A stretch of 64,000 nucleotides of DNA from Phycomyces nitens (lineage: Eukaryota; Mucoromycota; Mucoromycetes; Mucorales; Phycomycetaceae), in assembly GCA_022702545.1 (NCBI GenBank), contig JAHRBC010000003.1, positions 7,378,001 through 7,442,000 on the forward strand. Direction: 5' to 3'. Each line of letters opens with the position of its first letter. The first letter of the stretch is position 1. This document shows, in pieces, positions 54,094-54,981 of the stretch. A program made the translations under genes and the position numbers. The notes under the pieces were generated by a model. It saw nothing but the letters and a program-made list of their open reading frames with translations, did not search any database and was not told the origin of the DNA.

Positions 54094-54981
54094 ATGAAGT
54101 AAGGAAGACTTGCAAATAATCCATCCATCCATCAATCCATCAAACTCATTGATTTTTCTGTCGTTTATTTGATCTCGTATTGTTACATAACTATTTCGAT
54201 TGGGTTCAACTCCATTTCTCTCATGGGCTACATTGATGAATCGACTTTACCAGGCTCGAGATTTGCTCCTTCTCCGGTCACAAGATCTACCCTTCCAAGG
54301 GTAAGACCTACGTTCGCATTGACAGCAGGTAAATAAAAGGGCACGGCACATTTTACTGTGCCCAAATAATTGCAAATGGCCATTTTACTTACTTATTTAT
54401 CTTTTATTTAATCCAGAGTACGTTACAAACCCCTCTCCCCCTTGTTTTTTCAATTCCAATATACCATGATTATGTATAGACGACAACAGCAAATCCAAAA
54501 AAAAATAATCAAGAGAGCATTTTGTGCTTTGGAATCACAATTGAAAATCGCCATGCTCAACCCCTGCATTCGCTTCTTCTTCTTTTTTTTTCCCTTATAG
54601 TCTTTCCGTTTCATCAACGGCAAGTCCGAGTCCTACTTCCTCCAGCGTCTCAACCCCCGCAAGATCAAGTGGACCGTCATCTACCGTCGCTTGAACAAGA
54701 AGGGTATCACTGAGGAGATCGCCAAGAAGCGTTCCCGCCGTACCGTCAAGCACGAGCGTGCCGTCGCTGGTGTCTCCTGGGATGCTATCCGCGCCAAGCG
54801 TAACCAGAAGCCCGATGCCCGTGCTGCTGCCCGCCAGGCCGCCATTGCCAAGTCCAAGGAGGCCAAGAAGGCTGCCGCTGCCACCAAGAAGACCACCACT
54901 GGCTCCGCTGCTCAGGGCGCCAAGGTCTCCAAGCAGGGTGCCAAGGGTTTCGCTCCCAAGGCCGCTGCCACTTCCCGTTAA
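54094..54981 (+). CDS. RPL24: 60S ribosomal protein L24 (eL24), with predicted 1-nt microexon
   Basis: Encodes 153 residues: MKLEICSFSGHKIYPSKGK, then FINGKSESYFLQRLNPRKI, KWTVIYRRLNKKG and a basic Ala/Lys-rich tail. Exons: 54094-54098, 54254-54328, 54417 (one A) and 54601-54981. Exon 2 ends in phase 2 (AG), but the last exon must start in phase 0 at TCT, because the triplet immediately upstream in that frame is TAG. An intervening exon of length 1 modulo 3 is therefore required. The context TTTAATCCAG-A-GTACGT supplies acceptor, one nucleotide and donor, giving AGA (Arg) at the position where other eL24 proteins have a basic residue (DGK in human, DSR here). Gene identity is certain; the microexon is predicted. 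Confidence 0.95.

Follow-up and report, generated by a model that had tools for sequence, protein, structure and literature searches.

The gene for ribosomal protein eL24 in Phycomyces nitens very probably produces its mRNA by splicing in a constitutive exon of one nucleotide, an A at position 54417 of the window (the whole 64,000-nucleotide stretch of DNA that was analysed). We infer the use of this base in RNA from the genomic sequence of the gene and its relatives; independent support comes from a second copy that has the same arrangement, a third copy that lacks the introns concerned, and the database models of related fungi.

Results

The end of exon 2, at 54328 (GAC AGC AG/GTAAAT), is in phase 2, and the last exon begins in phase 0 at 54601 (TAG/TCT TTC CGT), where TAG is the in-frame codon before it. 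The two exons are one nucleotide out of phase, and the frame is restored by the A at 54417, which has an acceptor on one side and a donor on the other (TTTAATCCAG-A-GTACGT). A sequence-only reading of this DNA had drawn attention to both features; its coordinates for the phase gap are correct to the base, and the A stands between its acceptor and GTACGT as claimed. Joining 54094-54098, 54254-54328, 54417 and 54601-54981 (Table 1) gives an open coding sequence of 462 nt for an eL24 of 153 residues. When the joins were translated with the A omitted, the frame shifted and a stop followed after 57 residues, and retention of the intron led to an immediate stop. The full product scores 103.3 bits against the Pfam Ribosomal_L24e profile (cut-off 27), covering profile positions 1-66 of 66, and matches 87 distinct solved-structure sequences at E values up to 0.001, with the D-[SN]-K-x-F-R-F spacing the same in three printed alignments among them. 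The base is required for both the reading frame and the conserved protein.

Table 1. Positions of the parts of the eL24 gene in the window and of related features at the paralogous loci.
Feature	Position	Strand	Basis or remark
eL24 exon 1, coding part ATGAA	54094..54098	+	splice to 54254 gives M-K-L-E-I-C
Intron 1 (GTAAGG...CCAG)	54099..54253	+	C1 and C9 copies have an intron at the same position
Exon 2, phase 2 end (GAC AGC AG)	54254..54328	+	sequence and translated joins
Intron a, 88 nt (GTAAAT...AATCCAG)	54329..54416	+	C1 counterpart of 74 nt with TACTAAC
Predicted one-nucleotide exon A, third base of AGA (Arg27)	54417..54417	+	C1 counterpart L008:873; AGA unbroken in C9
Intron b, 183 nt (GTACGT...TTATAG), phase 0 at codon 27/28	54418..54600	+	RLP24 intron at the same boundary
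Last exon, stop TAA 54979-54981 included	54601..54981	+	sequence and translated joins
RLP24 intron, phase 0 after codon 27	L009:870-954 (C4:5426169-5426253)		
CATCCATC sites in intron 1, window copy	54119-54142		
CATCCATC sites in intron 1, C1 copy	L008:601-623		
CATCCATC sites in intron 1, C9 copy	L010 about 860-821	-	

A family search of the 49-Mb, 11-contig genome, in which only the best candidates were scored, returned seven exon hits at four loci, namely three eL24 genes (in the window, on C1 and on C9) and an RLP24 paralogue on C4. The C1 copy shares the one-nucleotide phase gap of the window copy and has a single A between splice sites (GTCATTAG-A-GTAAGC; L008 base 873, C1:1950672), with a TACTAAC element upstream, so that in both intron-bearing copies one base flanked by AG and GT sits inside what appears to be a single intron. 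Introns a and b measure 88 and 183 nt in the window and their C1 counterparts 74 and 95 nt; the two pairs have otherwise diverged, the longest exact match reported between them being 8 nt. The C9 copy keeps intron 1 and lacks introns a and b; it reads GAC AGC AGA AGC TTC, holding in line the base that is set apart in the other two genes. With the A included, all three copies encode the identical 153 residues, and the differences between their coding sequences (28 for window and C1, 22 for window and C9, 27 for C1 and C9) are all synonymous. The C9 codon and the identical proteins agree with the earlier proposal that the exon completes an arginine codon AGA and keeps the conserved length. From the 28 all-synonymous differences, the window and C1 genes look to be under purifying selection. 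The simplest account of the C9 copy would be intron loss by way of a spliced, reverse-transcribed message, a route that has also been argued for plant APC11 (PMC8831610).

Codon 28, right at the splice junction (54601-54603), is Ser in all three copies, encoded by TCT in the window and by AGC in C1 and C9, so that all three bases differ; it is Thr in 16 of the 19 intact Mucoromycotina models described below. CATCCATC repeats occur in intron 1 of all three copies (Table 1).

The motif AGNGT is found exactly once in the intron of each intron-bearing copy (TTAG-A-GTAAGC in C1). We scanned for middle exons that are free of stops, measure 3n+1 nt with a maximum of 120 nt, have introns of at least 40 nt on both sides and splice to the acceptor at 54600 (in C1, to the one that corresponds to it). 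The window offers four candidates and C1 a single one, the A, which sustains the claim of the sequence-only reading that a one-nucleotide microexon is required. In a second enumeration we took out GT-AG introns of 35 nt or more in every possible way in one or two steps, nested introns among them, keeping exon 2 to KTY and exon 3 reading FRFINGK. The window yielded 9 products that stay in frame and C1 yielded 12; in each copy only the product that retains the A reads YVRIDS[RK].FRF. A skip of VRIDSR from the donor at 54312 competes for the frame in both copies; in C1 only, a second AG (tagag/C) gives DSSFRF, one residue shorter, and several longer C1 products likewise depend on this AG. When GC donors were allowed the in-frame counts rose to 39 (window) and 32 (C1). 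A one-nucleotide AG-A-GC route at 54516, with a GC donor and the same protein, exists in the window and has no counterpart in C1.

An AG-N-GT arose in 12% and 15%, respectively, of dinucleotide shuffles of the two introns (5000 per intron, with 45 nt trimmed from each end), and since it is so common in shuffles the motif alone is weak evidence. The stricter pattern [CT]AG-N-GTA[ACT]G[CT] arose in 0.08% of shuffles of each intron and has three sites, the target included, in the 128 strand-kb of the window; it was chosen after the sites had been seen, and the paralogues and the cross-species evidence therefore weigh more.

The sequence-only reading had suggested comparing the gene with those of related species, and the comparison, made on protein models, found the junction disrupted in most Mucoromycotina models. 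The sample consisted of the best 120 of 272 eL24 relatives, comprising 64 models from Mucoromycotina, 42 from other organisms (41 named, and P0093, which carries only a transcript label) and 14 that name no organism. Models were grouped by organism name; Mucoromycotina, Jimgerdemannia and Calcarisporiella were looked up, and the other organisms were placed by general taxonomic knowledge. By a pattern of our own, models were scored as broken at codon 27 in 45/64 Mucoromycotina, 0/42 others and 1/14 unnamed (Fisher p = 7e-15, a value that treats the models as independent although they are not). Among the 45, exon 2 is absent or misframed in 15, VRxDSR is skipped in 10, D[SN]RV[RSC] is read in nine, the exon 2 donor is read through in two and other indels account for nine. 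The nine RV models come from seven species of Mucor, Rhizopus, Absidia, Rhizomucor, Lichtheimia and Jimgerdemannia. A V followed by R, S or C is what AG-A-GTN-NGN encodes, that is, the microexon and then a donor with G at +5, whereas read-through of a GTA donor at exon 2 would, in this phase, yield AGG-TAN and hence no V; the window and C1 introns would read RVR and RVS, respectively. Exon 2 of the window copy also contains a strong donor-like GTAAGA (54301-54306, in AAG GGT AAG), and in some of the broken models from other Mucorales exon 2 seems to stop at this site, with the frame shifted.

As an annotation control we counted models without the expected start. These number 15 of the 42 others (partial models included), all 15 intact at codon 27, and 30 of the 64 Mucoromycotina, in which a further 19 have a good start yet a broken junction; exon 1 is tiny. 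Part of the breakage in Mucoromycotina may thus reflect general annotation quality, with worse N-termini. The 19 Mucoromycotina models that are intact at codon 27 may come from genes without the introns or may have been put right with the help of RNA; they include some from species that also have a broken one, such as Parasitella, Thamnidium and Gongronella, pairs reminiscent of the copies with and without introns in P. nitens. No Phycomyces eL24, the C9 copy included, is among the best 120 of 272 relatives; other P. nitens proteins are present in the same database. A second search, which used a broken Umbelopsis model as query and is biased to models broken in like manner, yielded among the best 120 of 1235 matches 30 new proteins, which were kept out of the 64/42 comparison. 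The junction is broken in four of them, which come from Lichtheimia hyalospora (P0123), Thamnocephalis (P0138), Saitozyma (P0139) and Ustilago trichophora (P0141). The last three lie outside Mucoromycotina, and the microexon, or at least an intron at this place, may reach beyond that group. The eL24 gene is probably misannotated in many related fungi, and the one-base exon is probably old and widespread in Mucoromycotina.

The frame could also be kept if exon 2 ended at 54311 (TAC/GTTCGC) and joined 54601 in one step, with the loss of six residues (VRIDSR) and no microexon. This join is in frame in both intron-bearing copies, and joints of its type occur in 10/64 Mucoromycotina models, which look like the workarounds of gene finders. 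We nevertheless hold it to be very improbable, for the residues it drops have counterparts in 42/42 non-Mucoromycotina models and in the C9 copy, its donor looks far weaker than CAG/GTAAAT 17 nt downstream when set against the donor consensus, CAG/GTAAGT, and the AG-A-GT in both introns is left unexplained. The AG-A-GT would go equally unexplained, and the likelihood is similarly slight, if there were one intron with a splice site shifted by one base, either to just after the AGG that ends at 54329 or to just before the G at 54600. The codon would then be AGG, also Arg, and the protein identical, and both copies share the GGTAAAT at exon 2 and the acceptor TAG; yet such a shift violates the GT-AG rule at one end in two genes, predicts AGG where the C9 copy without the introns has AGA, and is at odds with nine models from other species, in which D[SN]RV[RSC] implies a base and then GT.

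A larger middle exon, for example 54419-54443 (25 nt) or 54514-54523 (10 nt), would be open and in frame in the window, and some are open in C1 by way of the second acceptor (tagag) only; with the corresponding acceptor, C1 offers no candidate but the A. Larger exons would insert residues that are absent from the C9 copy and from intact eL24 models, and would make the window and C1 copies differ. The first of them, which the sequence-only reading had named as a case against itself, fails in particular: it inserts eight residues that C9 lacks, and C1 has no such exon. We regard this account as scarcely credible, and no better can be said for a pseudogene in the window or an assembly error that mimics the phase gap. 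An intact C9 copy without these introns could indeed suffice for the cell, but 28/28 coding differences between window and C1 are synonymous, and a gap shared by two loci speaks against a local error. The sequencing error that the earlier reading had allowed for is not credible in view of exons 2 and 3, which match two other loci without gaps and yield identical proteins.

Elsewhere in the window, ten related frames of 508-634 residues in one orientation (7937-62384) form a tandem F-box family; for one of them (57136-58956), all named relatives among the matches listed are from Phycomyces, and a P. nitens protein among these is 100% identical over 58% of the query. An open frame of 582 residues on the minus strand (2213-3961) lies antisense to one of 1241 residues (2345-6070) that looks like what we take to be a multifunctional pyrimidine-synthesis enzyme, and is probably a codon-usage shadow.

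Discussion

According to the model that we favour, the single A would be flanked by intron a (54329-54416) and intron b (54418-54600), both of the ordinary GT-AG kind. Splice sites this close cannot be occupied at the same time, given the size of the spliceosome, and the two introns are therefore most likely removed sequentially. Removal of intron a would come first, leaving exon 2 to end in ...CAGCAG-A beside the donor GTACGT, which would then serve to remove intron b. The exonic context of this donor is weak, with A at -1, when judged against the donor consensus CAG/GTAAGT. It would have AGA upstream of it both before and after the first step, since AG ends exon 2 as well as intron a. Skipping of the exon would cause a frameshift and an early stop, and retention a stop at once, so that such transcripts would be expected to be lost. 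A functional eL24 mRNA would in this way depend on two ordered splicing steps. Codon 27 corresponds, in an alignment by eye, to K27 of human RPL24 (peptide TDGKVFQFLNAK), a residue described as acetylated on 60S subunits and, by homology, adjoining eIF6 (PMC4148130); by analogy residue 27 likely matters in the fungus as well.

In the RLP24 paralogue on C4, codon 27 is followed by an ordinary phase-0 intron of 85 nt, at the same boundary as intron b; a scan of this intron found no AGNGT. Since the RLP24 intron shares that boundary, intron a may have arisen one nucleotide before an older intron. The simplest history, reconstructed from one genome, would have intron b as old (or the site as hit twice) and intron a as a later arrival that landed between the AG and the A, a single base ahead of the intron b donor. 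We put at about even chances the fuller proposition that the exon arose once, in the ancestor of Mucoromycotina or earlier, by the landing of intron a upstream of the intron shared with RLP24, and that it has been kept since and is wrong in most models.

One-nucleotide exons are already known, and what sets the eL24 case apart is the gene, its duplication and its likely age. The few reported nuclear examples that we found are those of plant APC11 (PMC4674806), plant VPS55 (PMC8831610) and Fusarium CYP621A (PMC12940212). As in eL24, the plant exons consist of one base between AG and GT that is required for the frame and is missing from annotations, and intron-less copies of APC11 elsewhere carry the base in line; the plant exons are conserved over long evolution. 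The genes and the kingdom differ, and the plant exons are proven by cDNA or RNA-seq whereas the eL24 exon is read from sequence. The CYP621A exon, which its authors call the first for a fungal gene, likewise involves AG-N-GT in a long intron, a one-base phase gap and a supporting intron-less relative; that exon is a G in a rarely expressed P450 gene and was seen in RNA reads, whereas in eL24 it is an A in a ribosomal protein gene and recurs in two paralogues of one genome. Mitochondrial one-nucleotide exons appear to have been described in placozoan cox1 (PMC5436844) and in fungal mitogenomes (PMC12308204, PMC8208691). Among the matches listed in our searches of open-licence literature there was no one-nucleotide exon in Mucorales or in RPL24 or another ribosomal protein gene.

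The arrangement also recalls stwintrons, two adjacent introns removed consecutively that arise when a new intron enters an existing splice site (PMC5639578). The eL24 introns too are adjacent and their consecutive removal is proposed, but a stwintron leaves no base behind, and among the nested routes only the one that retains the A gives YVRIDS[RK].FRF; the [D1,2] stwintron reading (54329-54418 out, then G54328 joined with T54419...) is not among the in-frame products. Ratchet points of recursive splicing similarly place a donor after an acceptor and act in stepwise removal; there the acceptor abuts the donor, whereas AG-A-GT in eL24 retains one base between them and is no zero-length recursive splice site.

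A single base is the physical limit of exon size, and two eL24 paralogues with such an exon, together with one that lacks the introns, in a culturable fungus provide a natural test of how the spliceosome deals with an exon unable to hold two complexes. The case also exposes an annotation error that recurs across fungal databases. The match between intron b and the RLP24 intron suggests how such exons form. If our reading is true, codon 27 is split in a gene that every cell needs, and simple errors of splicing, whether skipping or retention, would lead to an early stop.
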